A stretch of DNA of 64,000 bases, taken from assembly GCA_037481935.1 (NCBI GenBank), contig JBBFKQ010000002.1:62001-126000 (forward strand), read 5' to 3'. The notes beneath the pieces were generated by a model. The model was not told where the DNA came from. It worked only from the letters and a program-made list of their open reading frames with translations, and ran no database searches. Of the stretch, positions 8,467-27,182 are shown piece by piece. The DNA comes from Aquificaceae bacterium (GTDB taxonomy: Bacteria; Aquificota; Aquificia; Aquificales; Aquificaceae). Made by a program: the position numbers and the translations under genes. The number at the start of each line of letters is the position of its first letter. Within the stretch, counting starts at the first letter, position 1.

Positions 8467-8467
8467 C

Positions 8468-8725: not shown

Positions 8726-8756
8726 GGTTTTACCTCCTTCCAAAAGTTTGTGATTT

Positions 8757-8784: not shown

Positions 8785-8851
8785 GAGTATGGTGTTTTTA
8801 GCATATATTTATGTCTCTTTTTCAAAAACATATGATAAAAGTCGTAAGATT

Positions 8852-8879
8852 TTGACCGGATTGATAAATAATTTAAACT
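8852..8879 (+). promoter_or_regulatory. Promoter of acs
   Basis: TTGACC (8852-8857), 16 nt, TAAACT (8874-8879), about 85 nt before the acs ATG. The TAAACT hexamer recurs as the -10 element of three Pho promoters in this window. Confidence 0.65.
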
Positions 8880-8963
8880 ACAAGTGCAGGTTTTAAATCC
8901 ATGTTTTCCGTAATACAATCTGGGTTATACTTTTTTAAACAAATCAGCCGAGGAGGTTTTAAC

Positions 8964-10856
8964 ATGGAAGTAAGAGAAGAGGTTCACCTGAAGGTAGAGG
9001 AGAAATACAGCCCACCAGCCCATGTGGTTGAGAAGGCATGGGTAAAAGACTACGAAGGCCTCTATCAGGAATCTATCAGGGACAGGGAAGGCTTCTGGGC
9101 AAAGATGGCTGAAGAACTCCACTGGTTCAAAAAGTGGGACAGGGTCCTTGAGTGGAACTACCCCTATGCCAAGTGGTTCGTAGGCGGGAAGACCAACATA
9201 ACCTACAACTGTCTTGACAGACATGTGCAGAATGGAAAGAGAAACAAGGTGGCATACATCTTCGTGGACGAGGACGGCAGAGAAAAGAAGATTACATACG
9301 GTGAACTCCTTGAGCTTGTGAACCGCATAGCGAATGGTCTAAAGTCTCTTGGGGTTAAAAAGGGAGACAGGGTCTCCATCTACATGCCCAACACCATAGA
9401 GGCCATAGCCTGCATGCTTGCCTGCGCCAGAATTGGGGCCATACACAGTGTGGTCTTTGCTGGCTTCAGTGAGGGGGCTCTCAGGCTCAGGATTGAGGAT
9501 GCCAAGGCAAAGGTGGTCCTGACCGCAAGCTACACGAAAAGAAGAGGCAAAAAGATAGACCTCTTTGCCACCGTCCAGAGGGCAATAGACGGTCTTGGGT
9601 TCGTGGACAGGGTTGTAGTGTGGGACAGGGATGGAGATGTGCTTAACGGCTCTGGTGGTCTCTTTGTCAGCTTTGATGAGCTTGTCAAAAACGGCGCACC
9701 CGATTGTGAGCCCGTGCAGATGGACGCAGAGGACCCCCTCTTTATTCTCTACACCTCTGGAACTACAGGAAAGCCCAAGGGTGTCCTTCACACAACGGGT
9801 GGCTACATGGTGGGAACCTACTTCACCACCAAGATTACCTTTGACCTTCATTACGATGACATTTACTGGTGCACTGCAGACATAGGCTGGATAACAGGAC
9901 ACAGCTACATAGTCTACGGTCCTCTTGCATGCGGAGCTACGTCTGTTATTACAGAGGGTGCACCCGACTACCCTGACCCGGGAAGGTGGTGGAGCTATGT
10001 GGAAAAATACAGAGTGAACATCTTCTACACGGCTCCCACCGCCATAAGGATGTTTATGAGATACGGAGAGCAGTGGCCGGCAAAGTATGACCTTTCCTCT
10101 CTGAGAATTCTTGGCTCTGTGGGAGAACCCATAAACCCAGAGGCGTGGCACTGGTATTACAAGCACATAGGCAGGGAAAACTGTGCCATAGTGGACACCT
10201 GGTGGCAGACCGAGACTGGAATGCACATGATAACCACCATACCCTCATATCCTGCAAAGCCCGGAAAGGCTGGAAAGCCCTACTTTGGCATAGAAGTGGC
10301 CGTGGTGGACAGCCAGGGTAATGAGCTCCCTCCGAACACAGTCGGAAACCTTGTAATAAAGACCCCATGGCCCTCCATGCTGAGAACCTGCTGGGGAGAG
10401 CCAGAGAGGTATGAGAAATACTGGAACACCATACCCGGCTACTATCTGGCAGGAGACCTTGCCACTTATGATGAAGAGGGTTATGTGATGATACTGGGTC
10501 GTGCGGATGATGTTCTCAACGTGGCGGGACACAGGATAGGAACTATGGAAGTAGAAAGTGCCCTCGTGGACCACCCCTCTGTGGCAGAGGCTGCAGTAAT
10601 AGGAAAGCCGCATGAGATAAAGGGTGAGTCCATAAAGGCCTTTGTCATTCTGAAAAAGGGCGTGGAGCCTTCAGACCACCTAAAAGAGGAAATAAAACAG
10701 CACGTGAGGCAGATTCTGGGCGCCATAGCAGTTCCTGACGAGATAGAGTTTGTGGAAAAGCTGCCAAAGACGAGGAGCGGGAAAATCATGAGGAGGGTTC
10801 TCAAGGCTCAGGAACTCGGGCTTCCAGTGGGGGACGTCTCAACGCTGGAGGACTGA
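8964..10856 (+). CDS. acs: Acetyl-CoA synthetase
   Basis: 630 residues from the ATG preceded by GAGGAGGT (an upstream ATG at 8901 lacks this support). It converts acetate, ATP and CoA to acetyl-CoA, AMP and PPi. Motifs seen: P-loop YTSGTTGKPKGV, TWWQTETG, the A8 hinge GRADDVLNVAGHRIGT, and the C-terminal PKTRSGKIMRR with the lysine that is acetylated in other Acs proteins. Length is typical (~650). It is divergent from the acetate-type symporter genes, which together suggest acetate uptake and activation. Confidence 0.97.
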   Translation: MEVREEVHLKVEEKYSPPAHVVEKAWVKDYEGLYQESIRDREGFWAKMAEELHWFKKWDRVLEWNYPYAKWFVGGKTNITYNCLDRHVQNGKRNKVAYIFVDEDGREKKITYGELLELVNRIANGLKSLGVKKGDRVSIYMPNTIEAIACMLACARIGAIHSVVFAGFSEGALRLRIEDAKAKVVLTASYTKRRGKKIDLFATVQRAIDGLGFVDRVVVWDRDGDVLNGSGGLFVSFDELVKNGAPDCEPVQMDAEDPLFILYTSGTTGKPKGVLHTTGGYMVGTYFTTKITFDLHYDDIYWCTADIGWITGHSYIVYGPLACGATSVITEGAPDYPDPGRWWSYVEKYRVNIFYTAPTAIRMFMRYGEQWPAKYDLSSLRILGSVGEPINPEAWHWYYKHIGRENCAIVDTWWQTETGMHMITTIPSYPAKPGKAGKPYFGIEVAVVDSQGNELPPNTVGNLVIKTPWPSMLRTCWGEPERYEKYWNTIPGYYLAGDLATYDEEGYVMILGRADDVLNVAGHRIGTMEVESALVDHPSVAEAAVIGKPHEIKGESIKAFVILKKGVEPSDHLKEEIKQHVRQILGAIAVPDEIEFVEKLPKTRSGKIMRRVLKAQELGLPVGDVSTLED

Positions 10857-12348: not shown

Positions 12349-12363
12349 GGGGGCTTTGCCCCC
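12349..12363 (+). terminator. GC hairpin after thiC
   Basis: GGGGGC-TTT-GCCCCC, identical to the one after acs, 8 nt after the thiC stop and only 1 nt before the first Pho repeat. It probably insulates the Pho promoter downstream; the following sequence TCTTAACC is not a clean T-run. Confidence 0.55.
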
Positions 12364-12364
12364 T

Positions 12365-12419
12365 CTTAACCAAATCTTAACCAAACCTTAAAGAAATCTT
12401 AACCTTTCTGCCCTATCCT
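12365..12419 (+). promoter_or_regulatory. Pho-box promoter A (four repeats) before the DUF2334 operon
   Basis: Four direct repeats with 4-nt spacers: CTTAACC (12365), CTTAACC (12376), CTTAAAG (12387), CTTAACC (12398). Then 9 nt and TATCCT (12414-12419), with the ATG 7 nt later. The 11-bp period and the repeats in place of a -35 element match the known layout of PhoB-activated promoters. The start codon falls where transcription should begin, so the mRNA may be leaderless. Confidence 0.8.
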
Positions 12420-12426
12420 TTTACCC

Positions 12427-13173
12427 ATGAAGCTCGCCATAGTGGAACTGCACGATGTGAGCCCCTACTACAGGGCTGAGTTTTTAGCCTCTCTTGAGCT
12501 TCTGGAGGAGGTGGGATTGCATAGATTTTCCCTCCTGGTGGTGCCCTACTTCTGGGAATGTGCACCTCTGGGAGGGGATATGGGCTTTTTAAGCCTTCTC
12601 AAAGGTCTTGATGCAGAGCTTTTGCTTCATGGCTATACGCACAGGGGCAGAAAGAGGCTTCAGCACATGCTCTGGACGGACGGGGAGGGAGAGTTTGGAG
12701 GGCTGGGACTGTCAGAAACCTATGAGAGGGTTCATGCAGGCCTGGAACTTATGGAACACTTTGGGCTAAAGACAAGGTTTTTCGTTCCGCCCGCTTGGAT
12801 AGGAAACCCATATCTTGAGGACGTGCTCTATTCTCTTGGCTTTATGGGTGTGGCTTACCGCTGGCACATAAAAGACCTGAAGGCAGAAAGGGCCATAAGG
12901 TCCCCGGTCCTCACCTTCAGCAACAGGCACCTTTTTTCCTGGCTCAGCCTGAAGGTTGTCCCAAACATTGAAAAGATTTACAGCAATCATGACCTTCTCA
13001 GGCTTGCACTCCATATGGCAGATTTTAGAGATGAAAGAAAGGTAAGACTGTGGAGGGATATACTCTGCAGGATAAAAAACAGCAGGAGGTTAACCAGCTA
13101 TGGGGAAATACTTGGCAAAGGCGGACCTTCACCTTCACTCAAAGGCCTCCAACCTGCCGGGGGGCTGGTTTAG
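12427..13173 (+). CDS. DUF2334 / polysaccharide deacetylase-like protein
   Basis: 248 residues, no signal peptide. It opens with LAIVELHDVSPYYRAEF, where the His-Asp resembles the metal-binding start of the NodB-like fold, and has LLHGYTHRG for the second metal motif. The DUF2334 family is assumed to be deacetylases of unknown substrate. It is the first gene of a Pho-box operon with two glycosyltransferases and PsiE, so a role in envelope glycolipid or polysaccharide remodelling under phosphate stress is inferred. Its 3' end overlaps the next gene by 74 nt. No Shine-Dalgarno precedes the ATG. Confidence 0.75.
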   Translation: MKLAIVELHDVSPYYRAEFLASLELLEEVGLHRFSLLVVPYFWECAPLGGDMGFLSLLKGLDAELLLHGYTHRGRKRLQHMLWTDGEGEFGGLGLSETYERVHAGLELMEHFGLKTRFFVPPAWIGNPYLEDVLYSLGFMGVAYRWHIKDLKAERAIRSPVLTFSNRHLFSWLSLKVVPNIEKIYSNHDLLRLALHMADFRDERKVRLWRDILCRIKNSRRLTSYGEILGKGGPSPSLKGLQPAGGLV

Positions 13174-15346
13174 CAGGCTCGTAGGATGCCCAGAGAGCTT
13201 TACAGAGCCTCTTGAGATATACAGAAGGCTAAAAGAGAGAGGCATGAGCTTTGTAACCATAACGGACCACAATACCGTAAGCGGAGTTCTTGAGATAGCT
13301 CACATGCCCGAGGTTTTCATAAGTTGCGAATATACGGTGGAGATACCTGAAGAAAGGGGTAAGGTGCACGTGCTGGTGTATGGCATTACAGAATCACAGC
13401 ATCAGGACCTTCTCAGGCTCAGAGAAAACATCTACGACTTTGTCCCTTATCTCAAGTCTTATAGAATAGCCCATTCACTTGCCCATCCCCTCTACTCTGT
13501 TCAGGGCACAAGGGTGAGCAGGAGTCTTGTGGAAAAGCTTGTGCTTCTCTTTGATAACTGGGAGGTGATAAACGGAACAAGGGGTGACGGAGTCAGATAC
13601 ATAGAGGAGACCATAGCCCGTGCTTACGATGGATGGGACAGAATACACTATCTGGCCGAAAGGCACAGAATTGAACCTCAGAGGACAAGAGAAAGAATAG
13701 CCTTTACCGCAGGCTCTGACGACCACGGTGGTATGGATGTGGGCAGAACATGGACAGGGGTTGAGGGGGCAACCACCAGAGAAGATTTCCTGAAAGGCCT
13801 ATGGGAGGGTAGAACGCAGGTGGGCACAGAAGAACTTGGCGATAAGAGGCTTCTAAATATGGTGTGTAGAGTTGGTTATGACTTTCTGAGGAGCAAAAAC
13901 CATATACCCTCTGAAGTAAAGCCTATTACCGACTACCTTTTTATGCATTCAGACAATCCAGTGGTAGGTATGCTTCTGAGGAATTTTTTAAGTATAAAGG
14001 CAGAAAGGGTGGACCTCCTGAGGGAGATAGCAAAAAAGCTGCCCTCTTTTACCTTAGAGAGATTTTTGAAAAGCCCCTCACCGCAAACCATCGGGGAGCT
14101 GTGCCTGTCCCTCATGGCTCATGGCTTCCCCGCCTTTTTAAAATACGCCCAGAGAAAAGAAGAGCAGAAGATAAAGGCTCTTGGAAAGGAGTTTGGAATA
14201 GTCAACGGAAAAACACCAAAGGTTGCCTACCTTACAGATACATACCACCACATAAACGGCGTTGCAAGAAGCAATAAGCTAATAAGAGAGATAGCTCTTG
14301 AAGAAGAACTGCCCTTTACTGTGGTTATATCCAGCTCGCAGGTTATGGAGGAGGAGAACCTGGTAAACCTCCAGCCCCTTTTTGAACTGCCCACGCCCTT
14401 CTATGAAGAGTTAAGGATGGGAGTGCCCAACCTCATAGAGTTCATGGACTTTCTTGAGAGGGAGGGCTTTACTCAGGTTCACATAGCCACACCCGGACCT
14501 CTGGGTCTTATGGGCCTTCTTCTGGGTAAGCTTCTTGGTCTAAGAGTAACCTTTGCCTTCCATACGGACATACCATCTTACGCAAAAACCTACACAGGAG
14601 ACTCAGAGTTGGAAGAAATGCTCTGGAAAGCCTTCCTTTTCCTCGGCAACATATCCGACAGGTTCTTTGTTCCCTCAGAACACTACAGAAAGATTTTTGT
14701 AAGCAGGGGGCTAAACTACGGCAAGATAAGCACCTTCAGGCGTGGCGTTGATACTGAGTTATTCTCCCCTGACAAGAAAAGCGACGACTTCTGGACCGAA
14801 AGGCTTGGAGTCAAAAGGCATCAGAAAGTTATCCTCTATGTAGGAAGAGTCTCAAAGGAAAAGGGTCTGGACAAATTCCTTTACGCAGCAAGATGCTTCC
14901 CTGAGGATGTTTTTGTGGTGGTGGGAGATGGTCCCTACAGGAAGGAGCTCGAAAACAAAAAGCCAAAAAACATGCACCTGGTGGGCTATATGGTGGGGGA
15001 AGAGCTTGCAAAAGCCTACGCAAGCTCTCATGTCTTTCTCTTCCCCTCTGAGACGGAGACCTATGGACAGGTGGTTCTGGAAGCGATGGCAAGCGGACTT
15101 CCAGTAATAGTTAGCTCAAGAGGTGCTTCTCACGAGCATGTGCAGGAAGGAGTGAACGGTTTTATAGCCACAAGGACAGAAGAATTCGTGGAAAAGCTCT
15201 CCCTTCTCATATCCAAAGAAGAAATGAGAAGAAACATGTCGCAGGAAGCCCTCTACTATGCAAAAAGCCTTGACATGAGAAAAACCTACATAGATTACAT
15301 GTTAGCCATAGCAGGTCTCGGGAGGCTTGTCCATGAAGCTTGTTGA
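13100..15346 (+). CDS. PHP-domain / GT4 glycosyltransferase fusion
   Basis: 748 residues. The N-terminal third is a PHP metallohydrolase-like domain (KADLHLHSKAS, TITDHNT, GSDDHGG). After a helical linker (~240-370) comes a GT-B fold glycosyltransferase of family 4 (~371-740) starting VAYLTDTYHHINGVARS, with ETYGQVVLEAMASGLPV near the donor site. The glycosyltransferase half resembles SqdX/SQD2-type lipid glycosyltransferases and mannosyltransferases. The ATG at 13100 lies inside the previous gene but has AGGAGGT 9 nt before it, which supports the long overlap. Likely a cytoplasmic-face enzyme; the acceptor is unknown. Confidence 0.85.
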   Translation: MGKYLAKADLHLHSKASNLPGGWFSRLVGCPESFTEPLEIYRRLKERGMSFVTITDHNTVSGVLEIAHMPEVFISCEYTVEIPEERGKVHVLVYGITESQHQDLLRLRENIYDFVPYLKSYRIAHSLAHPLYSVQGTRVSRSLVEKLVLLFDNWEVINGTRGDGVRYIEETIARAYDGWDRIHYLAERHRIEPQRTRERIAFTAGSDDHGGMDVGRTWTGVEGATTREDFLKGLWEGRTQVGTEELGDKRLLNMVCRVGYDFLRSKNHIPSEVKPITDYLFMHSDNPVVGMLLRNFLSIKAERVDLLREIAKKLPSFTLERFLKSPSPQTIGELCLSLMAHGFPAFLKYAQRKEEQKIKALGKEFGIVNGKTPKVAYLTDTYHHINGVARSNKLIREIALEEELPFTVVISSSQVMEEENLVNLQPLFELPTPFYEELRMGVPNLIEFMDFLEREGFTQVHIATPGPLGLMGLLLGKLLGLRVTFAFHTDIPSYAKTYTGDSELEEMLWKAFLFLGNISDRFFVPSEHYRKIFVSRGLNYGKISTFRRGVDTELFSPDKKSDDFWTERLGVKRHQKVILYVGRVSKEKGLDKFLYAARCFPEDVFVVVGDGPYRKELENKKPKNMHLVGYMVGEELAKAYASSHVFLFPSETETYGQVVLEAMASGLPVIVSSRGASHEHVQEGVNGFIATRTEEFVEKLSLLISKEEMRRNMSQEALYYAKSLDMRKTYIDYMLAIAGLGRLVHEAC

Positions 15347-16442
15347 TATAACACCTTATTTTCACAGCAGGAGCGGAGGCATAAGGAGGTATCTGCTTGA
15401 AAAAACAAAATATCTGCAGCAAAGGGGTGTGGAGCATGTGCTCATAGTTCCCGGCAGGGAGAGAAGAACATACTGCATAAATGCTACGAGAGTTTACGAA
15501 CTTCCCTCCTTCCCCCTCCCCCTCACTGGAGGTTACAGGTTCTTCTCCTCTTTCTCAGAGATAAGGGAGATACTGCAGAGGGAGGAGCCTGATGTGGTGG
15601 AGCTGGGCGGAACCTACCAGCCAGTAAACCATCTCAAGTCTGAAAGATACCTGCTGAGCGTTTTCTATCACTCTGACATAAGGACTGACCTGTCCCTGCT
15701 CCCTGCTCCGGAAAGGCTCAGAAAAGCCCTTCTGGAACATACCATAAAGAAGAAGCTCTCCAGGGCAGATATGATAATTACACCCTCAAGAGTGCAGGAA
15801 GAGTTTCTTAAGGCTTCGGGGCTTGAAAATGTGGTTACGGTAAACCTTGGAGTGGACACGGATGTGTTCAACCCGTCAAAGAGAGACCCATACTTTGACA
15901 GAGCTCTGGGCATAGGTGCGGGCAAGTTTAAACTACTATACTCTGGGAGGCTTTCACCGGACAAAAACGTAGACCTTCTTCTTGAAGTTTTCCAGCACCT
16001 TGACCCTACACTTTTCCACCTTGTTGTGGCGGGGGATGGTCCTGCAAGAAAAAAGGTGGAAAAACTCACCCAGAAGCTTCCTAACCTCACTTACTTGGGA
16101 TACCTTCACAGGGAGGAGGAACTTGCCAGGGTATATGCGAGCTGTGATGTTTTTGTGAGCACATCCTGCGGTGAAACCTATGGACTTGCCTTCCTTGAGG
16201 CTCAGGCATGTGGCTGTCTTCTGGTTGCCTTTGATATGGGTCTTGAAACCCAGCCCTTCAAAGAGTTTCTTGTGAGAGAGCCGACCCTGGAAGCCTTTTA
16301 CGACGCAATAATTCATGCATGCAATGCCTTAAGCCTTTCCAACAGAGAAAGGCTAAGCTCCTATGTTCAGAGGCACTTTTCATGGGAATCCACCTTTGAC
16401 AGGCTTCTCGGGGTTTACCGTGGAGTCCTTGCTCAGGTATAG
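15333..16442 (+). CDS. GT4 family glycosyltransferase
   Basis: 369 residues from the ATG 7 nt after GGGAGG (an in-frame TTG 6 nt earlier is less likely). GT-B fold: the N-terminal SRSGGIRRYLLE glycine-rich loop, then YSGRLSPDKNVDLLLEVF and the C-terminal ETYGLAFLEAQACG donor-binding motif. The start overlaps the PHP-GT gene by 14 nt. A second glycosyltransferase in the same Pho operon suggests two successive sugar additions. Lipid versus polysaccharide acceptor is not decidable from the sequence. Confidence 0.88.
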   Translation: MKLVDITPYFHSRSGGIRRYLLEKTKYLQQRGVEHVLIVPGRERRTYCINATRVYELPSFPLPLTGGYRFFSSFSEIREILQREEPDVVELGGTYQPVNHLKSERYLLSVFYHSDIRTDLSLLPAPERLRKALLEHTIKKKLSRADMIITPSRVQEEFLKASGLENVVTVNLGVDTDVFNPSKRDPYFDRALGIGAGKFKLLYSGRLSPDKNVDLLLEVFQHLDPTLFHLVVAGDGPARKKVEKLTQKLPNLTYLGYLHREEELARVYASCDVFVSTSCGETYGLAFLEAQACGCLLVAFDMGLETQPFKEFLVREPTLEAFYDAIIHACNALSLSNRERLSSYVQRHFSWESTFDRLLGVYRGVLAQV

Positions 16443-16866
16443 CCAGATAGTCAACCCCTCACTTGTGCTCTACTACAGCATAAGAGTTCTCACATACGGT
16501 GTTATATTCCTCGGGCTTTTTCTGCTTCTTGTGGAAATCTTCTCCATGGAGCTCAGCTTTGAAAATCTTGTCAAGAAACTCACAATAAGGATTCTTGAAC
16601 TCGTCATTCTTTATGAAATATTCAGGGCAGTGCTCGGCATATTTGAGTATCACAGGGTAAAACTTACTTTCCTTGTGGATGCCTCCATATCCTTCATGCT
16701 CAGAGAGCTTATCATAACGGTATACTCAGGAAAGCTTGATATTCATATGTCCATATCGATAGGTATCATAATGTTCATTCTGGCTCTTCTGAGGATAGTG
16801 GTAGTCAAATTTTCCCCCTCTTCAGAGACAAGGCAGGAAATACAAAAACCCTTAACAGAATCTTAA
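16420..16866 (+). CDS. PsiE-like phosphate-starvation-inducible membrane protein
   Basis: About 148 residues from a GTG at 16420; an ATG at 16363 would give 167 but overlaps the previous gene by 80 nt, so the start is uncertain. Four hydrophobic segments, with the pattern YSIRVLTYGVIFLGLFLLL, ILYEIFRAVLGIFEYHRV and LRELIITVYSG, as in E. coli PsiE. PsiE is a membrane protein of unknown function induced by phosphate starvation. Its position in an operon with a Pho-box promoter supports both assignments. Its stop codon lies inside a repeat of the next Pho promoter. Confidence 0.75.
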   Translation: MESLLRYSQIVNPSLVLYYSIRVLTYGVIFLGLFLLLVEIFSMELSFENLVKKLTIRILELVILYEIFRAVLGIFEYHRVKLTFLVDASISFMLRELIITVYSGKLDIHMSISIGIIMFILALLRIVVVKFSPSSETRQEIQKPLTES

Positions 16867-16883
16867 CAATTCTCGGTTAAACT
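16851..16883 (+). promoter_or_regulatory. Pho-box promoter B before the 68-residue gene
   Basis: CTTAACA (16851), GAAT, CTTAACA (16862), 9 nt, TAAACT (16878-16883), then 7 nt to the ATG at 16891. The second repeat contains the TAA stop of the PsiE-like gene. The gene after it has no ribosome site and is probably leaderless. Confidence 0.78.
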
Positions 16884-16890
16884 ATTCAGC

Positions 16891-17097
16891 ATGAAGGAGA
16901 GGATTGATAGCCTCATTCAGGAGATTGAGAGGGAGAAGGACTGCTACAGAAGGTTTCTGAGGAAAGGGGAGAGGCTCAGGAAGCGAGAAAGAGACACCTT
17001 CCTCACCGAAAAGGATAGAACCATACTGATAGAGTCCTTTGTGGTGGGTGGGCTTCTGGAAAACCTTATAACAAAGGCAGTAAACAGACTCTTTTAG
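16891..17097 (+). CDS. Small charged helical protein, Pho-box controlled
   Basis: 68 residues, not recognised. The first ~48 residues are very rich in Lys, Arg and Glu and look like a coiled coil (IQEIEREKDCYRRFLRKGER); the tail (IESFVVGGLLENLITKAVNR) is amphipathic. It has its own Pho-box promoter 7 nt away and overlaps the convergent SCP2-like gene by 4 nt at the 3' end. The dedicated promoter argues that it is a real gene. Confidence 0.6.
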   Translation: MKERIDSLIQEIEREKDCYRRFLRKGERLRKRERDTFLTEKDRTILIESFVVGGLLENLITKAVNRLF

Positions 17098-17447
17098 AGG
17101 AGCCTCTGAAGAGTGGACAGAACCTTCTGATAGTCCCCCCTTATCCTCACTCTACCTTCAAAGATGTAGCGTAATATTCTTGAGGGTTTTTCCACGAGCC
17201 TGAGCAGGTCTCTGTAGCTAATGCTTATCACATGTCTTGCCTCTGATATTCCAGAGCTATAACGTATGCCCTCAGAGCTTATCAGAAAGTTAGCCTTTCC
17301 CGCTTCTGGGAGCTCAACTTCAAGTAAGAGTGGCTCCTGTATGTTTTTTAAAAATTCCCCGTGTGTTTCTTGAATATGATGGGCAAGGAGCTTGAGCTCC
17401 CTTACATAATCCTCAGTATTCGCTTTCAATGTGTATGACCCTTTCAT
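17094..17447 (-). CDS. SCP2-like domain protein
   Basis: 117 residues from the ATG with AGGAGG 10 nt upstream; a longer frame reaches 17516 but lacks a better start. The C-terminal half (ISISYRDLLRLVEKP...IFEGRVRIRGDYQKVLSTLQRL) has the pattern of the SCP2 lipid-binding fold: a hydrophobic strand, an acceptor helix and the GR(V/L)RIKGD turn. It is the last gene of the P-type ATPase operon. Lipid or hydrophobic ligand binding is inferred from the fold only. Confidence 0.6.
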   Translation of the reverse strand: MKGSYTLKANTEDYVRELKLLAHHIQETHGEFLKNIQEPLLLEVELPEAGKANFLISSEGIRYSSGISEARHVISISYRDLLRLVEKPSRILRYIFEGRVRIRGDYQKVLSTLQRLL

Positions 17448-17670
17448 CCTGAGAGAGCCTCCTGATGATATCCTCAAGAATGTCAAAAGCCCTTTCCTCT
17501 GTGGAGTATATGCCAAGAACGGCGGGGAGGAGAGGCTGGCTCATGTAAGCAACCACCTTGTAAACCAGCCTCTTCTTACCCTCTATCTCTATCTTTGCCT
17601 CCTCCACCGAAAGGGAAATGACATGGAGGGTGTTCAGATACCTTCCACTTCTTGTCCTTATAAAGTTCAT
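17413..17670 (-). CDS. Uncharacterised 85-residue protein
   Basis: Not recognised. Predicted mixed alpha/beta: it begins NFIRTRSGRYLNTLHVISLSV and ends with a helix bearing ERAFDILEDIIRRL. No cysteine motif or membrane segment. It overlaps both neighbours (4 nt with the coiled-coil gene, 35 nt with the SCP2-like gene), so it is translated as part of the ATPase operon. Confidence 0.6.
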   Translation of the reverse strand: MNFIRTRSGRYLNTLHVISLSVEEAKIEIEGKKRLVYKVVAYMSQPLLPAVLGIYSTEERAFDILEDIIRRLSQDERVIHIESEY

Positions 17671-17942
17671 CCTTCCTCTTTTTTCTCCTCTTCTTTTAGG
17701 GCTTTTTTGGCTCCTTCCACGGCACCCTCAACGGAATACCTCACAACCTTGAGAGCCTTTTCTCCTATCTCCGCCGTGGTTTTGACTATTTCCTTGCTGA
17801 TATCCATAACCTTTGATAGAGCTTCAGCAGGAAGGTCTTTGAGGCTCTTTTCTTCCTCTGCCACTCCCATTTTCTTCTTGAGCTCTTCAAGCTCTGCCTT
17901 GATTCTCTCAAGCTCCTGAGCAAGGTCCCTCTTTTCTTCCAT
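17667..17942 (-). CDS. Coiled-coil / amphipathic helix protein
   Basis: 91 residues, almost entirely helical: a coiled coil at ~5-27 (LAQELERIKAELEELKKK) then an alanine/valine/glycine-rich amphipathic helix and a Lys/Glu tail. No catalytic motif. It has a strong AAGGAGGT ribosome site and follows the P-type ATPase gene by 6 nt. It resembles the small helical companions found beside some P-type ATPases; its function is unknown. Confidence 0.65.
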   Translation of the reverse strand: MEEKRDLAQELERIKAELEELKKKMGVAEEEKSLKDLPAEALSKVMDISKEIVKTTAEIGEKALKVVRYSVEGAVEGAKKALKEEEKKEEG

Positions 17943-17948
17943 GGCTTT

Positions 17949-20033
17949 TCACCTCCTTTGGGGTTTTTGTAATGAATATATACCCAACAGCACGGTAGTG
18001 CCGTTGTTTATGAGGGTTGAAACAGATGGCCCGATAAGCCCCAGGGCTGAGCCTATCAGACCTATAGTATTTATAAGGCCGTTAAGCCTGTATGTGGTTT
18101 TGAGCTTCTTTACGGTGTGCTCCGCAATGTCCACCACATCCACCAGGTGCCAGAGGCTATCCCCGATGACGATGTCCGCCACCTCTATGGCTATGTCGGT
18201 TCCGCTCCTGAGGGAAATGCCCACGTCTGAGGAGGAAAGGGCTGGTGAATCGTTTACACCATCACCAACAAAGGCCACCACCCTTCCCTGTTTTTTAAGC
18301 TTTTCCACAACCTTTGCCTTCTCTGCAGGGAAAACCCTTGCGTAAAATTCTTCCAGACCAAGCTCCTTTGCCATATATCTGGCTATACCTTCGTTGTCCC
18401 CAGTGCAAAGTATGACCTTCTTACCCCTCTTTCTGAGCTCAGCAACCACATCCTTTGCCTCTTCTCTGAGTGGGTCTCTGAAGGTGAGAAGACCAACTAT
18501 TTTCCTTTCCCTCACAAGATAGAGAACGGACTTCGCCTCGGAGTGAAACTTATCCACAAGGTCTCTAACTTCCTGACTTATCCTTATCCTCTTCCTTTGC
18601 ATAAAACGGGTGCTTCCCAGCATGAACTTTGTTCCATTCAGCTCACCCTCTATACCCAGTCCTATGTGATACTGGGAGTTTTCTCTTGGGACAAGTTCCA
18701 GCCCCCTATCCTCTGCCAGCTTCACTATCGCCCTTGCCACCGGATGGGTTATCCTCTGTTCAAGGGAGGCGGCGTATCTGAGGGTTTCTTCTTCAGAAAT
18801 CTCAAGCCCCACCACATCCTCAACCACTGGATGCCCCACCGTTAGTGTTCCCGTCTTGTCCATGACAAAGGTGTCAACCCTTGAGAGGGCTTCCAGCTTT
18901 CCACCGCTCTTTATGAGTATGCCGTAAGTGGAGGCCTGTGCCACACTGGATAGCACCGTAAGAGGCGTTGTAAGATGAATACCCGTGTGGTAGTCTATGA
19001 TAAGTGTGGAGGTGAGCCTTCCCACCTGACCGCTGAGAAGGTAAGACAGCGTGCCAAGGCCAACGGTCGGCATCACAAGCCTGTTGGCGGTCTCTTCTGC
19101 CATCTTCTGTATGTTTATGGGCTCTTTTATGCTCTCCTCCACGATTTTTGCGATTTTTGCCACCACCGTTTCTTCTCCCACCTCTTCTACCCTTACGTAA
19201 AGTTTACCATCTTCAACGAAGGTGCCCGCAAAAACCTTATCGCCCACCTTTTTGTGAACCGGGTTTGACTCTCCCGTCAGGGATGCCTGGTTTACGAGAG
19301 CATCCCCTTCCTCCACTACACCGTCTGCAGGAATCTTTTCCCCGGCGTAGACAGCTATCAGGTCGCCCTTTTTAAGGTCAAGGGCCTTTATCTTTATAAC
19401 CTGACCATTGCCTATAAGGAGCCATGCAGTATCCTCCTTGTAGGAGAAGAGCTTTTCAATCTTTTCATAAGCCTTTTTCTCTACCCTTTCGGAGAGGTAA
19501 TCGCCAAGAGCCAGCAGGAATACCATGGTATGTGCAGAAAGTGGGTTCCCTGTGAGGCTTGCCAGCACTATGGCTGAGGAATCAAGAAAGTGAACATCAA
19601 GCTTTCTTCCTCTGAGGGAGCTTATAGCCTTTTCAAATATGGGCTTTGAGAGGAGCAGGGTCATGCCTGCGAGAAGTGGACCGGGAATTACGCCCCTCAG
19701 GAGGTATGGCAGAAAACCAGCGGTGCTCAGCATTAGCCAGCGAGATGTCCCCGTATCTTTCTTGTGAACACTCGCCCTTTCCCTTGAGAGGTCTTCAAGG
19801 AAAACATCCCTTGGTGTGTTCTCAATGTGGCTGAGAAACTCTATGAGGTCAAAGCTCTGAGGGTCATATTCAAGAATTAGTCTTCCTGAAGTTCTTGAGT
19901 AGCTTACCTTCCTTACGCCCCCAAACCTTGAAAAATAAGACTTGAGCGTTTCATCTGGATGGTGTAAATACTGAAAGAGGTATGATGTGAGCCTGAGCCT
20001 TCCAGGAGAGAGCCTTTCTACCCTGTAGGTCAT
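17949..20033 (-). CDS. P1B-like heavy-metal P-type ATPase with atypical membrane motif
   Basis: 694 residues. N-terminal domain (~1-80) resembles a degenerate heavy-metal-associated fold without CXXC. Actuator motif TGES at 253-256, phosphorylation motif DKTGT at 392-396, the HP locus THPVARAI near 429 (a P1B trait), and GDGVNDSPAL near the end. In the transmembrane helix where P1B pumps carry CPC, this protein reads IDYHTGIHLTTP (347-351 DYHTG), so Cys-Pro-Cys is absent. Ion and direction are therefore unknown. It is the fourth gene of a Pho-box operon; a role in ion balance under phosphate limitation is inferred. Confidence 0.85.
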   Translation of the reverse strand: MTYRVERLSPGRLRLTSYLFQYLHHPDETLKSYFSRFGGVRKVSYSRTSGRLILEYDPQSFDLIEFLSHIENTPRDVFLEDLSRERASVHKKDTGTSRWLMLSTAGFLPYLLRGVIPGPLLAGMTLLLSKPIFEKAISSLRGRKLDVHFLDSSAIVLASLTGNPLSAHTMVFLLALGDYLSERVEKKAYEKIEKLFSYKEDTAWLLIGNGQVIKIKALDLKKGDLIAVYAGEKIPADGVVEEGDALVNQASLTGESNPVHKKVGDKVFAGTFVEDGKLYVRVEEVGEETVVAKIAKIVEESIKEPINIQKMAEETANRLVMPTVGLGTLSYLLSGQVGRLTSTLIIDYHTGIHLTTPLTVLSSVAQASTYGILIKSGGKLEALSRVDTFVMDKTGTLTVGHPVVEDVVGLEISEEETLRYAASLEQRITHPVARAIVKLAEDRGLELVPRENSQYHIGLGIEGELNGTKFMLGSTRFMQRKRIRISQEVRDLVDKFHSEAKSVLYLVRERKIVGLLTFRDPLREEAKDVVAELRKRGKKVILCTGDNEGIARYMAKELGLEEFYARVFPAEKAKVVEKLKKQGRVVAFVGDGVNDSPALSSSDVGISLRSGTDIAIEVADIVIGDSLWHLVDVVDIAEHTVKKLKTTYRLNGLINTIGLIGSALGLIGPSVSTLINNGTTVLLGIYSLQKPQRR

Positions 20034-20233
20034 TCTGTTTTGCTCTCCTGCTGAAGCTTGAGCTCAAGGGCTTTCACCATTGCCTCAATCTCTCTCTGGG
20101 TCTCTTCCAGCCTTCTCTTTTCCTTTGCCCTGTCAAGCATGTAGAAGGCAAGCACCCCAAGACCAAAGCCAAGGGCAAAACTGAAAGGACCTGAACATAC
20201 TGCCTTTCCAAGTAGTGAAGTTATGTTGTTCAT
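20030..20233 (-). CDS. Small membrane-anchored coiled-coil protein
   Basis: 67 residues: one transmembrane helix near the N-terminus (FSFALGFGLGVLAFYML) followed by a charged coiled coil (KEKRRLEETQREIEAMVKAL). GAGGAGGTG ribosome site; overlaps the ATPase start by 4 nt. With the 104-residue protein upstream it forms a pair of single-span helical proteins that may associate with the pump. No family assigned. Confidence 0.65.
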   Translation of the reverse strand: MNNITSLLGKAVCSGPFSFALGFGLGVLAFYMLDRAKEKRRLEETQREIEAMVKALELKLQQESKTE

Positions 20234-20245
20234 GTTTTCACCTCC

Positions 20246-20560
20246 TCACAGTCTTTCCTTTATTCTCTGCAGAATTTCTTGCTGTTTCTGGAGAACTTCA
20301 AGCTTTTTCTCCACCTCAAGCCTGTAGAGGTGCTTAGCTTCAGATACCACATCTTCCCAGAACTCCTTTCCTTCCTCAAGATTTCCCGTGAGCCACTGCT
20401 GGAAGGCTATGACCTCCTTGGTGGTGGATACAAGGAAAGGTCTTGCGTCTCTCATGAGCCTACTGAGGACCACAAGCCCTGCAATGGCACCAAAGCCATA
20501 AAGCATCATGTTGGTTGAAAGGCACCCACCTATGGTGCTTGGAATGCTGACGTTAAACAT
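20246..20560 (-). CDS. Membrane-anchored helical protein (possibly DUF5132-like)
   Basis: 104 residues: one hydrophobic helix (MMLYGFGAIAGLVVLSRLM), then a long cytoplasmic helical region ending in EKKLEVLQKQQEILQRIKER. AAGGAGGT ribosome site before the ATG at 20560. Small proteins of this shape accompany P-type ATPases with DYxTG-type motifs in my recollection, but I cannot confirm the family without a search. Confidence 0.6.
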   Translation of the reverse strand: MFNVSIPSTIGGCLSTNMMLYGFGAIAGLVVLSRLMRDARPFLVSTTKEVIAFQQWLTGNLEEGKEFWEDVVSEAKHLYRLEVEKKLEVLQKQQEILQRIKERL

Positions 20561-20571
20561 GCCTTACCTCC

Positions 20572-20946
20572 TTATAGCTTATTCTTTAAATATGGTATAA
20601 GAAACATACTGCAGACTGCAAAGGAAATAAGCCCCACATTCCACCCAAGAAGAGCCATGCTAAAGCCCAGCTTTACTGCAGGATGTTTCAAAAAGGGCTG
20701 AATATAAAAATGCAGGTCTTCCCTTTCCAGCTTCTGGGGTGCTCTGCCACCCTTGAGGTTTTCAATGATGTAGTGGAAAAAACTCCCTTCTCTGAACTTC
20801 ACAAGAAGCGTTCTTGTGTTTTCTTTGTATTCAACCCCCTCAACCCCCTCCACCCCGTTCATGCCACGCAGAAACAGGTCCCTCTCTGCAACACTTGAGA
20901 AGTAAAGCCTTGCTTCACCTCTTCTGAGGGACACATATTCTATCAT
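20572..20946 (-). CDS. HMA_2-like domain protein with C-terminal membrane helix
   Basis: 124 residues. The N-terminal ~65 resemble a ferredoxin-like heavy-metal-associated fold lacking CXXC (GEARLYFSSVAERDLFLRGM... LLVKFREGSFFHYIIENL), similar in plan to the N-terminus of the P-type ATPase downstream. The tail holds hydrophobic stretches (LGFSMALLGWNVGLISFAVC). A repeat GVEGVEGVE lies in the first loop. First gene of the Pho-box ATPase operon; the -10 TATAAT is 8 nt from the ATG and there is no Shine-Dalgarno, so probably leaderless. Confidence 0.65.
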   Translation of the reverse strand: MIEYVSLRRGEARLYFSSVAERDLFLRGMNGVEGVEGVEYKENTRTLLVKFREGSFFHYIIENLKGGRAPQKLEREDLHFYIQPFLKHPAVKLGFSMALLGWNVGLISFAVCSMFLIPYLKNKL

Positions 20947-20954: not shown

Positions 20955-20987
20955 ATTATAAAGTAGGATTGTTAAGATTTGGTTAAG
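20955..20987 (-). promoter_or_regulatory. Pho-box promoter C of the P-type ATPase operon
   Basis: Read on the minus strand: CTTAACC (20987-20981), AAAT, CTTAACA (20976-20970), 9 nt, TATAAT (20960-20955), 8 nt, ATG. The first repeat contains the TAA stop of the CZB-like gene upstream. Confidence 0.8.
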
Positions 20988-21378
20988 GATAGCGGACCTC
21001 TTCGAGACCTTTTAGCATACGCTCCAGTTTCATCAGGAGATGATAAAGGGTCAGGGATGTATCCTGCATCTGCTTTACAAGGTTTTCATCGGGTTCCTTC
21101 GTGTTTATGTTCTTCCCTATCTCGTGAAACCTGCAGTGAACCTCTTCTATCTGAAGCAGCACATCCCTTATATGTTGGGGAAATTCATCTATTCTAGGCA
21201 TTACGTCTCTGTAGAAGGTCTGCCCAAAGGCACAGCAGTTCTCTTTTGTATCCCTGCAACACTCCTTATGGTTAAAGTCTTTTCTATTTTCTATGGCCCT
21301 CTTAAGCCTCTTCAGATAAAGCTCATGCTGTGCCAGATAAAACCTCACATCTATCACAGTGCTCGCTCCAGCCCGCAT
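20983..21378 (-). CDS. CZB-like zinc-binding domain protein
   Basis: 131 residues from the ATG at 21378; the frame stays open to 21450. Conserved-looking His/Cys pattern: AQHELYLKRL near the start, a central CCAFGQTFYRDV and VHCRFHEIGK, which matches the chemoreceptor zinc-binding (CZB) layout H...C-x-(F/L)-G...H-x-x-(F/V)-H. CZB domains sense zinc, redox or chlorine species, usually within chemoreceptors or diguanylate cyclases; here the domain stands alone. A minus-strand TATAAT at 21387-21382 lies only 3 nt from this ATG, so the true start could be slightly downstream. Its stop lies in Pho promoter C. Confidence 0.65.
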   Translation of the reverse strand: MRAGASTVIDVRFYLAQHELYLKRLKRAIENRKDFNHKECCRDTKENCCAFGQTFYRDVMPRIDEFPQHIRDVLLQIEEVHCRFHEIGKNINTKEPDENLVKQMQDTSLTLYHLLMKLERMLKGLEEVRYP

Positions 21379-21402
21379 TAAATTATAACAAACAAGCAGT
21401 GT

Positions 21403-21408
21403 TAAAAT
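21403..21408 (+). promoter_or_regulatory. Putative -10 of thrB, leaderless spacing
   Basis: TAAAAT 7 nt before the thrB ATG with no ribosome site between. No convincing -35 at 16-18 nt. The spacing equals that of other suspected leaderless genes in the window. Confidence 0.35.
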
Positions 21409-21415
21409 TTTCTGC

Positions 21416-22315
21416 ATGTTTAAAATCGTAGTTCCCGCCAGCACCAGCAACTTTGGCTCTGGCTTTGATACCTTTGGGCTTGCACTAAGCCTCTATAACG
21501 ACTTCATGGTGGAATTTTCAGAGGAATACTCGGTTGAAATTGAGAGCGAAGGTGGCCATCTGCCGAGGGACAGAAACAATCTCTTTATAAAGGCATACGC
21601 AAGGGCATGTCAGCTGTCAGGAATACCAGAAAAACCCATAAGGCTCAAACAGTTAAACAGGGTGCCCACCGCAAGGGGTCTTGGTTCATCAGCCACCGCC
21701 ATAGTAGGAGGCATTTCTGCCTTTGAAGTTCTCCACCATGTAAAGTTAAGCCTTGAGGATAAACTCAGGATTGCCTTTGAGTTTGAGCCTCATCCTGATA
21801 ACCTGCTTCCTGCTCTTCTTGGGGGCTTCGTGGTGTGTGCAGGCTCTGAGGAAGGGGTGAAGTTTCTCAGGCTTGACTTTCCTGAGGAGCTAAAGGTTGT
21901 GGTCTGCATTCCCCATTTTGAGCTCTCCACTCAGAAGGCAAGGGAGGTGTTAAAGAGGGAGGTTTCTCTGAAAGATGCAGTCTTTAACCTTCAGAGGTCT
22001 GCCCTCTTTGTGGGGGCGTTGCTTTCTGGCAGGTTTGACCTCCTGAGGGAAGCGGTAAAAGACAGGCTTCATCAACCCCACAGGGCTGAGCTCATACCCG
22101 GGTTCTGGAAAGTCATGGAAAGTGCCTATTCTGCAGGTGCGGTGGCCCTTTTCCTGAGCGGTGCAGGACCCTCCATAGCGGGTCTATGTCTTAAAAACTG
22201 CGATGGGGTGGGAAAAGCTATGGTGGAAGCCTTCAGAGAAAGGGGAATAAGCTCAACATACATGGTGCTCTCTTCATCTCGGGAGGGTGTAAGGGTTGAA
22301 AATCCTGACCCTTGA
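21416..22315 (+). CDS. thrB: Homoserine kinase
   Basis: 299 residues, GHMP kinase fold. It phosphorylates homoserine in threonine biosynthesis. The ATP-binding loop PTARGLGSSATAIVGG and the N-terminal substrate motif PASTSNFGSGFDTFGLAL are both seen, plus the C-terminal LSGAGPSIAGL. Length is normal (~300). No Shine-Dalgarno is visible before the ATG. It overlaps coaX by 20 nt. Confidence 0.95.
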   Translation: MFKIVVPASTSNFGSGFDTFGLALSLYNDFMVEFSEEYSVEIESEGGHLPRDRNNLFIKAYARACQLSGIPEKPIRLKQLNRVPTARGLGSSATAIVGGISAFEVLHHVKLSLEDKLRIAFEFEPHPDNLLPALLGGFVVCAGSEEGVKFLRLDFPEELKVVVCIPHFELSTQKAREVLKREVSLKDAVFNLQRSALFVGALLSGRFDLLREAVKDRLHQPHRAELIPGFWKVMESAYSAGAVALFLSGAGPSIAGLCLKNCDGVGKAMVEAFRERGISSTYMVLSSSREGVRVENPDP

Positions 22316-24482: not shown

Positions 24483-24515
24483 CTTAACGAAAACTTAACA
24501 CTCTGGGGGTAAACT
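24483..24515 (+). promoter_or_regulatory. Pho-box promoter D of the GTPase/EAL-GGDEF operon
   Basis: CTTAACG (24483), AAAA, CTTAACA (24494), 9 nt, TAAACT (24510-24515). A 21-nt stretch with AAAGGAGGA precedes the ATG at 24537, so this mRNA has a short normal leader. Confidence 0.8.
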
Positions 24516-24536
24516 CATAGACAAAGGAGGAAAGCC

Positions 24537-25043
24537 ATGGAGCTTTTCAAAAATCCTCAGGGACTTCTGGAAATTGTGACGGAGCAGGTGGGTCTTATCG
24601 GTGGGGAGATGGCCGGAAAAACCTTCCGCAGGCTTGTGGAAGAGCTCAATGGGACAGACCCGCTCGTAGCCATAGAGAGAAGCATCTCATACATCTTTGA
24701 CCGGGCTGGAAGCGTGCTTATGGGACATATAGGCAGGAGGGTTGCCCTTGAATCTCAGGCTCTTCACAACTTCTTCGGGCTTCCTACCAATGACTACAGG
24801 CTCAGCATGGAACTGAAATATCCCATAATTGACACTTTGAAAAACAATGGTATAGAGCCCACGAGAGGAATGCTGTGCTCTCTCTGCAAAGGTTACATGC
24901 AGGGGACTGCAGAAAGGATAAACCTTGGCAATCTCAGGGAGGTAGTTCACAGGGAGGGCGTATGCCAGTTTTTCTTTGGAGGTGAAGAAAATGGACCTGC
25001 TGGACTACAGCCTGAGCCAGCAAGAGCTGGAGGAAATAACTAA
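24537..25043 (+). CDS. V4R-like domain protein
   Basis: 168 residues. The second half resembles a V4R/4VR small-molecule-binding domain: CSLCKGYMQGTAERIN followed by VVHREGVCQFFFGG, with three cysteines spaced as in V4R proteins that bind metal or hydrocarbons. The first half is helical. First gene of a six-gene operon ahead of pst; as such it is a candidate sensor for the roadblock/GTPase pair. Assignment is by eye and moderate. It overlaps the roadblock gene by 53 nt. Confidence 0.6.
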   Translation: MELFKNPQGLLEIVTEQVGLIGGEMAGKTFRRLVEELNGTDPLVAIERSISYIFDRAGSVLMGHIGRRVALESQALHNFFGLPTNDYRLSMELKYPIIDTLKNNGIEPTRGMLCSLCKGYMQGTAERINLGNLREVVHREGVCQFFFGGEENGPAGLQPEPARAGGNN

Positions 25044-25440
25044 TAGGCTTCAGGATTTTAAAAACTCCCTTTTTCTTGAGCTTGTGGTGCTTATGGACGA
25101 TGGGGGGAGGCTTGTGAGCTATGCACCCTACGTGGATACTCTAAAACCCATGGTTCAGCGGGTCGCCATCGTAGGTGCGGCGGTTGTGGGTGCGGTGGAC
25201 CAGCTTGAGCATGTGATATCTTCCAAGAGAAACATGTATTTCTCTGGAGTAGACAAGAACATGTATGTGCACGTGATAGACCAAAAGTTTCTGCTTGCAT
25301 CGGTCTTTAATCATAAGGTTCCTCTCGGAAGCGTCAAGCTCATGAAAGAAAGACTGTCAAGAGAGATAGGGGAAATACTTAAAAGGGCGAGAAGCAGAAA
25401 CCAGAAAAAGGTGGTAAGGTTTGAGGACCTTGCTATATGA
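24991..25440 (+). CDS. Roadblock/LC7 domain protein
   Basis: 149 residues from the ATG preceded by TGGAGGTGAA; an in-frame TTG 15 nt earlier overlaps the ribosome site and is not the start. The roadblock core is ELVVLMDDGGRLVSYAPY, then a helix and KNMYVHVIDQKFLLASVF. Such proteins (MglB-like) act as GTPase-activating or scaffold partners of small GTPases, and an MglA-like GTPase follows with a 4-nt overlap. The last ~25 residues are basic. Confidence 0.82.
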   Translation: MDLLDYSLSQQELEEITNRLQDFKNSLFLELVVLMDDGGRLVSYAPYVDTLKPMVQRVAIVGAAVVGAVDQLEHVISSKRNMYFSGVDKNMYVHVIDQKFLLASVFNHKVPLGSVKLMKERLSREIGEILKRARSRNQKKVVRFEDLAI

Positions 25441-25967
25441 ACCTGCGCATACTTTACCACGGACTTGGTATGGCGGGCAAAACCACAAACCTTGAAAAGC
25501 TCAGGGAAATATATGCCTCCTTTGTAAATGACAGGCTTCATCAGCAGACCACCGAAGGCAGGACCGTTTACCTTGACATACTCGCTCTTAACCTCAAAAC
25601 AAAGACAGGTAATGAAGAGGTAGAGGTGAGCCTTTTCACCACTCCAGGACAGGAAAGGTTCAAAATTCTCAGAAAGTGGATATTTGGACATGTGGATGGG
25701 CTTGTGATGGTGTTAGATTCCTCCAGAAGTCTTGAGGAGAATCTCAAGGCTTACCAGGAGCTGGAAGAATACGGACTTACTTCCCTGCCGGTAGTGGTTC
25801 AGGCGAACAAGCGGGATGCAGACAACCCCATTCCTATGGAAGAAATATCAAGGGCCTTTGACGGCCTTAAAGTGCTGGAAGCGATTGCGAAGGATGGGCT
25901 GGGTGTTGCAGAGACTTTCAGGGCAATTATCAGGGAGGTTCTCCATGCAAAGGCTCATGCTGGCTGA
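25437..25967 (+). CDS. MglA-like small Ras-family GTPase
   Basis: 176 residues. G1 is GLGMAGKTTN, G3 is TTPGQERF and G4 is NKRD (QANKRDAD); the aspartate of the usual DxxG is replaced by TPGQ as in MglA and Arf/Gtr-related bacterial GTPases. MglA proteins with roadblock partners set cell polarity and motility in Myxococcus and Thermus. Here the pair sits in a Pho-box operon with an EAL-GGDEF protein. Polarity or motility output under phosphate stress is an inference. Confidence 0.88.
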   Translation: MNLRILYHGLGMAGKTTNLEKLREIYASFVNDRLHQQTTEGRTVYLDILALNLKTKTGNEEVEVSLFTTPGQERFKILRKWIFGHVDGLVMVLDSSRSLEENLKAYQELEEYGLTSLPVVVQANKRDADNPIPMEEISRAFDGLKVLEAIAKDGLGVAETFRAIIREVLHAKAHAG

Positions 25968-26733
25968 GCTAAGCCTCAAGCTCAGGCCTCTTTATGGACC
26001 CTTTCACAGGGACATGGTGAACGTCTCATGGCTCACGGAAACGGTTAGCAGTTCTCTCAGGTCAGGCTACTTTATGCTTCAGAGTCTGGAAGGACTTGAG
26101 TTCGTTCCAGTGCTTGAAGGAAGGTTAAAAGGTGCTCTGTCAGAAGAATTTGAGCTTATTAGCTTTTACTCCACACTTGAAAACTTCGTTGTGCATGCTT
26201 TTGAACTTTACGAGAAGTATCGTCTTCCACTTTACAGCGACAGACCCCTCTGGGTGAACTTAGAGAGCATAAACTTCAACATAAGGGAGTTTTTTAAAAA
26301 ACTTCAAGATTTTGAGGTCACAGGCTTTATGCTGGTGGACAACAGGGTAAAGCTCATAAGGGGAACACTGCTTTTGCAGAAAGGCTTGGTGGTGGGAGCC
26401 CATTACGCAGAAGAAAGTGGCAGGAACGCTCTCGTAAAGATTATTGAGGACCTCGGCAAAGACATGTGCTCCATGAAGGTGTATGAGATACCCGAGGAGC
26501 TACTTTCCTTTCTCTTACTTGACTGTGAACTTGCCGGTCTGTATCAGAGCTTTGAAGACGTGCCTTTCAAAAGCCTTTCTGGAACTGCTATTGTGGTAAG
26601 CGTATCGCCTGAAAAGTATGGATACCTTATTTTCTCTCAGGGTGAGGAGGTTTTCAGCGAAGGCTTTGAAGAAGACGCACCTTTTATGAGCTTTTGCTAC
26701 CTTCAGGAGTTGTGGCATCCGTGGAACCCATGA
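25945..26733 (+). CDS. Uncharacterised protein of the GTPase operon
   Basis: 262 residues from the ATG after GGGAGGTT (a longer frame to 25816 lies inside the GTPase gene). No family recognised with confidence. The middle (INFNIREFFKKLQDFEVTG... GTLLLQKGLVVGAHY) resembles DUF4388-like modules in which a short helix precedes a beta hairpin, and which occur beside MglA and response regulators. It overlaps the GTPase gene by 23 nt and the next gene by 4 nt (ATGA). Confidence 0.65.
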   Translation: MQRLMLAELSLKLRPLYGPFHRDMVNVSWLTETVSSSLRSGYFMLQSLEGLEFVPVLEGRLKGALSEEFELISFYSTLENFVVHAFELYEKYRLPLYSDRPLWVNLESINFNIREFFKKLQDFEVTGFMLVDNRVKLIRGTLLLQKGLVVGAHYAEESGRNALVKIIEDLGKDMCSMKVYEIPEELLSFLLLDCELAGLYQSFEDVPFKSLSGTAIVVSVSPEKYGYLIFSQGEEVFSEGFEEDAPFMSFCYLQELWHPWNP

Positions 26734-27182
26734 ACCCTCTTGAATTTATTCCCGATGACAGAAGTTTAAGGATAGTAAAGTATGACCCAGAACATCCCAT
26801 ACTCTACTTCTGCCCAGCCTGCTGGAGCACCGTTTCAAAGGACGATAAAGTGTGTCCTAACTGCGGATATGACCTTACAGAGTTCCATCAGCTTCCATAC
26901 GAATACAAGCTCATAATGGCCCTTGAACATCCAGTGAAGGACATGAAAAAGAACGTTATATACACAGTGGGAAGAAAAGACTTAGAGCTTGCCCTGCCTC
27001 ACTTTGAGCTGATGGTAAACAGGGAAACAGACCCCATAATACTTATGGAGATTGCGGACGCTCTTTCGAGGATGAGCTCGCCAGAAGCCACAAACCTCCT
27101 GAGAAAACTGGCGCAGCACCGCTACCCTGTGGTGCGTTCAAGGGCTATCATGCACCTTCAGAAGAGAATCAGCGATGTATAA
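26730..27182 (+). CDS. Zinc-ribbon / HEAT-repeat protein
   Basis: 150 residues. A double CXXC zinc ribbon (FCPACWSTVSKDDKVCPNCGYDL, cysteines near 28, 31, 42 and 45) is followed by two or three HEAT-like helical pairs (TDPIILMEIADALSRM, EATNLLRKLAQHRYPVVRSRA). Start chosen from the 4-nt ATGA overlap; the ribosome site is weak. Probably a protein-interaction adaptor in the GTPase/c-di-GMP operon. Confidence 0.72.
   Translation: MNPLEFIPDDRSLRIVKYDPEHPILYFCPACWSTVSKDDKVCPNCGYDLTEFHQLPYEYKLIMALEHPVKDMKKNVIYTVGRKDLELALPHFELMVNRETDPIILMEIADALSRMSSPEATNLLRKLAQHRYPVVRSRAIMHLQKRISDV

Follow-up and report, generated by a model that had tools for sequence, protein, structure and literature searches.

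A row of seven genes on the minus strand of an Aquificaceae genome, from the heat-loving phylum Aquificota, encoding a P-type ATPase and six small companions, is very likely regulated by phosphate, judging from a Pho box that stands at its promoter. The best explanation that we can offer, tentatively, is that the products form a Pho-induced, scaffolded efflux platform for a hard or borderline divalent cation.

The row occupies 17094-20946 of the window (the whole 64,000-nucleotide stretch of DNA that was analysed), where the original prediction had placed it; all seven ORFs exist, and the sizes and rough descriptions given for them were right. The genes lie on one strand, separated by gaps of 6-12 nt or overlapping by 4 nt, and this common direction and tight spacing fit a single operon. 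The features, in window coordinates, are:

20971-20987, minus strand: Pho box CTTAACCAAATCTTAAC, a tandem repeat with an 11-bp period, located 24 nt upstream of the A start codon
20955-20960, minus strand: -10 element TATAAT, between the Pho box (10 bp away) and the A start codon (8 nt away)
20572-20946, minus strand: A, 124 aa; N-terminal domain weakly HMA_2-like, C-terminal membrane span with a Cys
20246-20560, minus strand: B, 104 aa; single N-terminal span with a Gly motif, invariant Cys13, long charged helical tail
20030-20233, minus strand: C, 67 aa; single span with G-x3-G, invariant Cys13, helical tail
17949-20033, minus strand: D, 694 aa, P1B-type ATPase; DYHTG replaces CPC in TM4, NNGTT in the last helix
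17667-17942, minus strand: E, 91 aa; soluble, charged and helical, with a Lys/Glu/Ala-rich end
17413-17670, minus strand: F, 85 aa; module-specific family with an invariant TRSGRY, predicted alpha+beta domain
17094-17447, minus strand: G, SCP2-like; likely start at ATG 17447 (117 aa), the ORF extending to TTG 17516
16891-17097, plus strand: H, 68-aa helical protein, convergent with G
16851-16867, plus strand: second Pho box CTTAACAGAATCTTAAC, in front of H and convergent to the operon

The start of G is probably the ATG at 17447 and not the TTG at 17516, because homologues in two other loci (L052 and L054) suggest so. A Pho box also precedes H in L052, L053 and L054, and H accompanies the module in three families. 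Immediately upstream of the operon (20983-21450, minus strand) is a gene for a CZB protein of the zinc-binding chemoreceptor type, which only some of the congeners have at this position.

The Pho box and its genomic context

A genome-wide count of the motif CTTAACnnnnnCTTAAC gave nine perfect copies in the 1.69-Mb source genome, against about 0.24 expected from base composition, and the reversed pattern used as a control had no match in the genome even when one mismatch was allowed. Canonical targets lie behind the motif in this genome, namely pstS (window 28912), PhoX and PhoU, together with PhoD when one mismatch is accepted, and it is this association that identifies the motif as a Pho box. 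A chance occurrence is ruled out by the genome counts and by the conservation described below. The arrangement is like that of the Pho regulon of E. coli and Bacillus, in which tandem repeats with an 11-bp period likewise replace the -35 element in front of pst, phoU and phosphatase genes. A generic sigma-70 scan did not report the operon promoter, a result to be anticipated if the Pho box takes the place of the -35 element. Since the TATAAT is only 8 nt from the ATG of A, the A-G transcript is probably leaderless or nearly so; a TATAAT-like hexamer was present at a similar distance in several congeners.

In the ten other species of the genus for which the upstream region was available, all 12 of the 12 fixed bases of the box were kept, at a distance of 24-35 nt from the start codon of A, although neither the more distal upstream DNA nor the flanking genes were the same. 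Three other Aquificaceae genera also have the box before the module with at most one mismatch; it is perfect in genomes G019, G066 and G072 and carries one mismatch in G065 and in five genomes of the Hydrogenobaculum group. Among the Hydrogenothermaceae, the operon begins with a helical gene in G036, G040, G110 and G092, and a repeat array, weaker in G092, stands in front of it; in a Sulfurihydrogenibium locus (L069, genome G108) phoU and a gene for a PhoR-like PAS histidine kinase are followed, with hardly any gap, by the module; the frame upstream of this phoU resembles, by eye, the end of PstB. No Pho box was found at the module of G123, which represents a third family, and phoU lies about 1 kb behind the module there. 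The phoU of the source genome is on another contig (C11). Taken together, footprinting and the linkage to phoU/phoR strongly support control by Pho, and the Pho promoter that had been predicted for this operon is thus confirmed as an element common to pst/pho genes and conserved in relatives. One copy of the module, in G066 (L179, flipped, 6106-9133), has an intact Pho box and also an in-frame stop in A and a D split into several frames; it is either decaying or affected by sequence errors.

Beyond the Aquificota, phoU adjoins the pump gene, in convergent orientation, in two deltaproteobacterial contigs whose pumps are 77% identical to each other; the other deltaproteobacterial pumps with a readable motif are of DYSCA, CPC or similar types. 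Control of related pumps by a metal regulator, which the original prediction had named as evidence against its reading, was seen only at a distance: a metal-sensing repressor (PF02583) lies beside a distant, cysteine-bearing Chloroflexota relative (L081). The deeper family can therefore be metal-regulated while the DYxTG clade of the Aquificota very likely answers to Pho. A literature search in a limited library found no report of a Pho-controlled P1B pump, and a review of the Pho regulon (PMC4415409) mentions no P-type pump, unlike the situation in the module described here.

A P1B-type pump with a thiol-free transport site

As had been proposed, D is a P1B-type ATPase (TIGR01525, E 3e-144, 481.9 bits against a cut-off of 346). 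The core motifs DKTGT, TGES and GDGxND are present, with motifs at 253, 392 and 590, and the fold matches both CopA and ZntA. Where CopA has ACPCAFGLATP in TM4, D has IDYHTGIHLTTP, so that the CPx/CPC motif (or its SPC/TPC variants) by which P1B ATPases are recognised was not found. In the aligned rows this position reads DYHTG throughout the DYHTG clade (DFHTG in one member) and DYNTN in the Hydrogenobaculum group, and no TM4 cysteine was seen anywhere in the Aquificota pump clade. The sole cysteine of D, Cys 543, is in the cytosolic part and none is in the membrane; nor does a CxxC occur in A or in the N-terminus of D. The HN motif that marks the last helices of P1B6 and P1B6-like (CtpC) pumps is replaced by NN, and the Asn at the HN-motif position is invariant in 24 of 24 rows.

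A maximum-likelihood tree grouped the Aquificota DYHTG and DYNTN pumps together (99/97), with DxxTG pumps of Nitrospirota and of a Melainabacteria-like MAG as their sister group (100/99). The next outgroups were DYSCA pumps (100/99), followed by CtpC-like CPC pumps. On sequence grounds, the tree supports kinship of D to the CtpC-like pumps, and D is P1B by descent although it lacks the classical CPC motif. The nesting of the groups suggests that loss of the cysteines was probably stepwise and old, being ancestral to the clade, and the series CPC, DYSCA, DYGTG, DYHTG offers a natural ladder on which a change of P1B substrate could be tested. KdpFABC, too, combines a P-type ATPase and small membrane subunits into a stable complex, but D scores as P1B (3e-144) over KdpB (1.9e-53) and the module has no KdpA-like channel subunit.

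Partner proteins and their resemblance to effluxosome scaffolds

The description of A as HMA_2-like held only weakly: a profile-profile comparison with true HMA_2 proteins gave a probability of 85.7%, but A is below the Pfam cut-off. Among its homologues the best HMA_2 score was 18.9 bits (cut-off 30 bits), and 3 of 11 matched HMA_2 at E≤0.1. In an alignment of eight genomes from outside the Hydrogenobaculum group, the Cys in the membrane span of A is invariant. In B as in C, a single hydrophobic span precedes a charged, helical segment, in agreement with their description as single-span coiled-coil proteins; in both, the invariant Cys13 is near the N-terminal end of the span and glycines lie inside it. 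E is charged and, as it had been called, helical. F, listed at the outset as an unknown, scored below every family threshold; it is confidently predicted to fold into a small alpha+beta domain that is PH-like at best, and comparison with the PDB gave no significant hit (the top Z was 6.1, over 57 residues in an arrangement that is common). G proved to be SCP2-like (Pfam SCP2 23.8 bits against a cut-off of 21.3 for the copy in the window), and six of eight G homologues match SCP2, the best with an E value of 8.4e-08.

In mycobacteria, small single-span PacL proteins scaffold and stabilise CtpC (PMC9374683, PMC13043812), and DUF6110 proteins adjoin P1B6-family ATPases (PMC9374683). The PacL1-CtpC pair of M. 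tuberculosis (DUF1490 and a P1B6-like ATPase) shares with the module a P1B-type pump accompanied by an N-terminal HMA_2-like domain, and co-encoded small single-span proteins whose span contains Gly and whose tail is charged and helical; B and C, whose genes adjoin that of a P-ATPase, show this layout of single span and helical tail. The module differs in that D has no CPC, the metal-binding C-terminal motif is not seen in B or C, there are six partners instead of one, and a Pho box takes the place of zinc induction. DUF6110 and DUF5132 proteins beside P1B6-family pumps have the same layout as B and C, but counterparts of E, F and G were not seen at those loci. Assignment of B and C to these families was rejected in each case: there was no Pfam match to DUF1490 (PacL), DUF6110 scores were below the cut-off, and for DUF5132 the best score, from a Hydrogenobaculum-type B, was 14.5 bits against a 25-bit cut-off, the match to DUF5132-like proteins being short and weak. 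B and C resemble PacL/DUF6110 scaffolds in their layout, and their sequences gave no significant homology to DUF1490 or DUF6110. At two loci with DxxTG pumps (L072 and L097) weakly DUF5132-like proteins precede the pump, joined in L072 by an HMA_2 protein, and a small-span protein beside such pumps may therefore predate the Aquificota. Because the gene set is conserved and single-span scaffolds are proven for related mycobacterial P-ATPases, it is plausible, by analogy, that the A-G products form a multi-protein assembly.

Distribution and gene order of the module

B had a good match in 29 of 136 Aquificota genomes, spread over three families with one copy each, and a further, marginal match in G085 (the 30th). 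It was not found in the other 106, so the module answers no general need under phosphate limitation. Wherever its surroundings were examined, B adjoins a DYxTG pump. Matches to F turned up in 24 genomes, 21 of which also have B; the remaining three are G010 (where the contig is cut), G074 (a partial match) and G111. The order A-B-C-D-E-F-G is kept in the genus and in the Hydrogenothermaceae, and E, F and G also follow the pump in G123, E having been read by eye from an opposite-strand frame. The Hydrogenobaculum group has two A-like proteins, B, C and D, with a cation diffusion facilitator (CDF) in place of E-F-G. The concern attached to the original prediction, that homologous pumps might stand without the companions, was not borne out for the Aquificota DYxTG pumps, beside which companions are present. 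The sequences themselves document this conservation of the module, and they make its regulation by phosphate very likely.

Other genes were found next to the module in individual genomes. A TonB-dependent receptor with ExbB/ExbD/TonB-like genes adjoins it at two loci (L178, 10628-14556, where there is a Pho box, and L050, 1705-5629), and this row is a candidate for a phosphate-starvation outer-membrane uptake system. In a genome of the Hydrogenobaculum group a PF04185 phosphoesterase (L180, 3066-5687) is encoded directly upstream of the Pho box of the module.

Substrate and possible roles of the pump

P1B-type ATPases export a cation at the cost of ATP, and D would use ATP to do the same, like its P1B kin. 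Judged from the alignment, the donors at its site would be only oxygen and imidazole, contributed by Asp, Tyr, His and Thr in TM4 and by Asn-Asn in the last helix, and from this we infer that Mn, Fe, Mg or Ca is the most likely substrate, and not Cu, Zn or Cd; the ion that D exports is probably not the one carried by its relatives with a cysteine site. A CDF is encoded in the operon, after the pump or after E, in G040 and in the Hydrogenobaculum group, and the two CDFs are 44% identical. An alignment with transporters of solved structure showed that one CDF has Tyr and the other Phe at the His position of the TM2 HxxxD site, and that one of the two has Arg in place of the TM5 His. Pump and CDF have thus both left the soft-metal ligand set, which favours a hard or borderline cation; the Phe or Arg in the CDF site could, however, mean another function.

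In the efflux platform that we propose, scarcity of phosphate would lead a PhoB-type regulator to bind the tandem CTTAAC repeats and induce A-G as a single transcript. The pump may then be held in a membrane platform by B and C, possibly joined by A and E, in the way that PacL holds CtpC. The need for such a system may arise from the fact that ATP, polyphosphate and RNA, the main cation ligands, would shrink at limiting phosphate and set their cations free. If this is correct, a cation-export arm would be added to the bacterial phosphate-starvation response, and the idea of the effluxosome, a pump with small membrane scaffolds, would no longer be confined to mycobacteria but would take in a clade whose transport site is free of thiols. 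A bolder version, which we consider unlikely, is that the module represents a new class of multi-subunit P-type ATPase: the membrane chain of the pump is thiol-free, A, B and C each have a strongly conserved Cys at or in the span, and the partners might contribute in trans to completing the transport site or a redox-linked gate, so that phosphate starvation would be linked to hard-cation export in a new branch of Pho.

It is distinctly less probable that D is an ordinary exporter of soft metals (Zn, Cd or Cu) merely recruited into the Pho regulon. The P1B fold and a best profile of the heavy-metal kind would fit this, as would the CPC-bearing relatives, which are of the heavy-metal kind and one of which lies beside a metal repressor, but the Aquificota clade has no TM4 cysteine, the lone Cys of the window pump is cytosolic and the loss of CPC is ancestral to the clade. 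PhoX and PhoD use metals such as Ca or Fe, and metal supply to secreted metalloproteins was proposed for another P1B pump; D might accordingly export Ca or Fe to load these Pho-induced periplasmic enzymes. PhoX and PhoD share the regulon by virtue of their Pho boxes, PhoD is encoded close upstream of the module in G040, and one or other enzyme is present in 23 of the 29 module genomes against 15 of the 107 others (Fisher p 5e-11, uncorrected for kinship). Six genomes (five of the Hydrogenobaculum group and G123) nevertheless keep the module with neither enzyme, which weakens supply as the main role, and 15 have PhoX or PhoD but no match to B. Tat substrates are, moreover, usually loaded with metal in the cytoplasm, and we regard a supply pump as improbable.

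Two further roles would set the module apart from metal export or turn it back on the Pho pathway. In remodelling of lipids or glycolipids at low phosphate, G would bind lipid and D would move a lipid-linked or other non-metal substrate; the SCP2-like nature of G agrees with this, and so does the Pho-boxed operon of DUF2334, PHP-glycosyltransferase and glycosyltransferase genes that adjoins the module in the window and recurs in G040. The glycosyltransferase genes are not always adjacent, however, a CDF has joined the operon twice, and D is a clear P1B member with nothing of the P4 or P5 pumps about it, so that an envelope role seems very unlikely. The least probable of the readings considered is one in which the pump tunes the metal bound by PhoU and so feeds back on the Pho pathway. 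PhoU has been described as a metal-binding protein (PMC4415409), and the module lies directly behind phoU and the PhoR-like kinase gene in L069 and near phoU in G123, as does the pump in the two deltaproteobacterial contigs. Against this, the deltaproteobacterial genes are convergent and not co-transcribed, phoU and the module are on separate contigs in the window genome, and the module is preceded by a Pho promoter of its own, which is what one would expect of an output gene.

Other Pho-boxed rows in the window

At 12354-12403 (plus strand) a Pho-box repeat array precedes the row at 12427-16866, which encodes DUF2334, PHP-glycosyltransferase, glycosyltransferase and PsiE-like proteins and probably serves the synthesis of phosphate-free glycolipid or glycan; DUF2334 and glycosyltransferase genes also adjoin the module in G040 (L050). 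At 24483-28941, directly upstream of pstS, a perfect Pho box is followed by genes for a Ras/Arf-like small GTPase, a HEAT-repeat protein and an EAL-GGDEF protein. From its gene content and box this row is a predicted Pho-controlled GTPase/cyclic-di-GMP module, and similar rows are present in L052 and L055.
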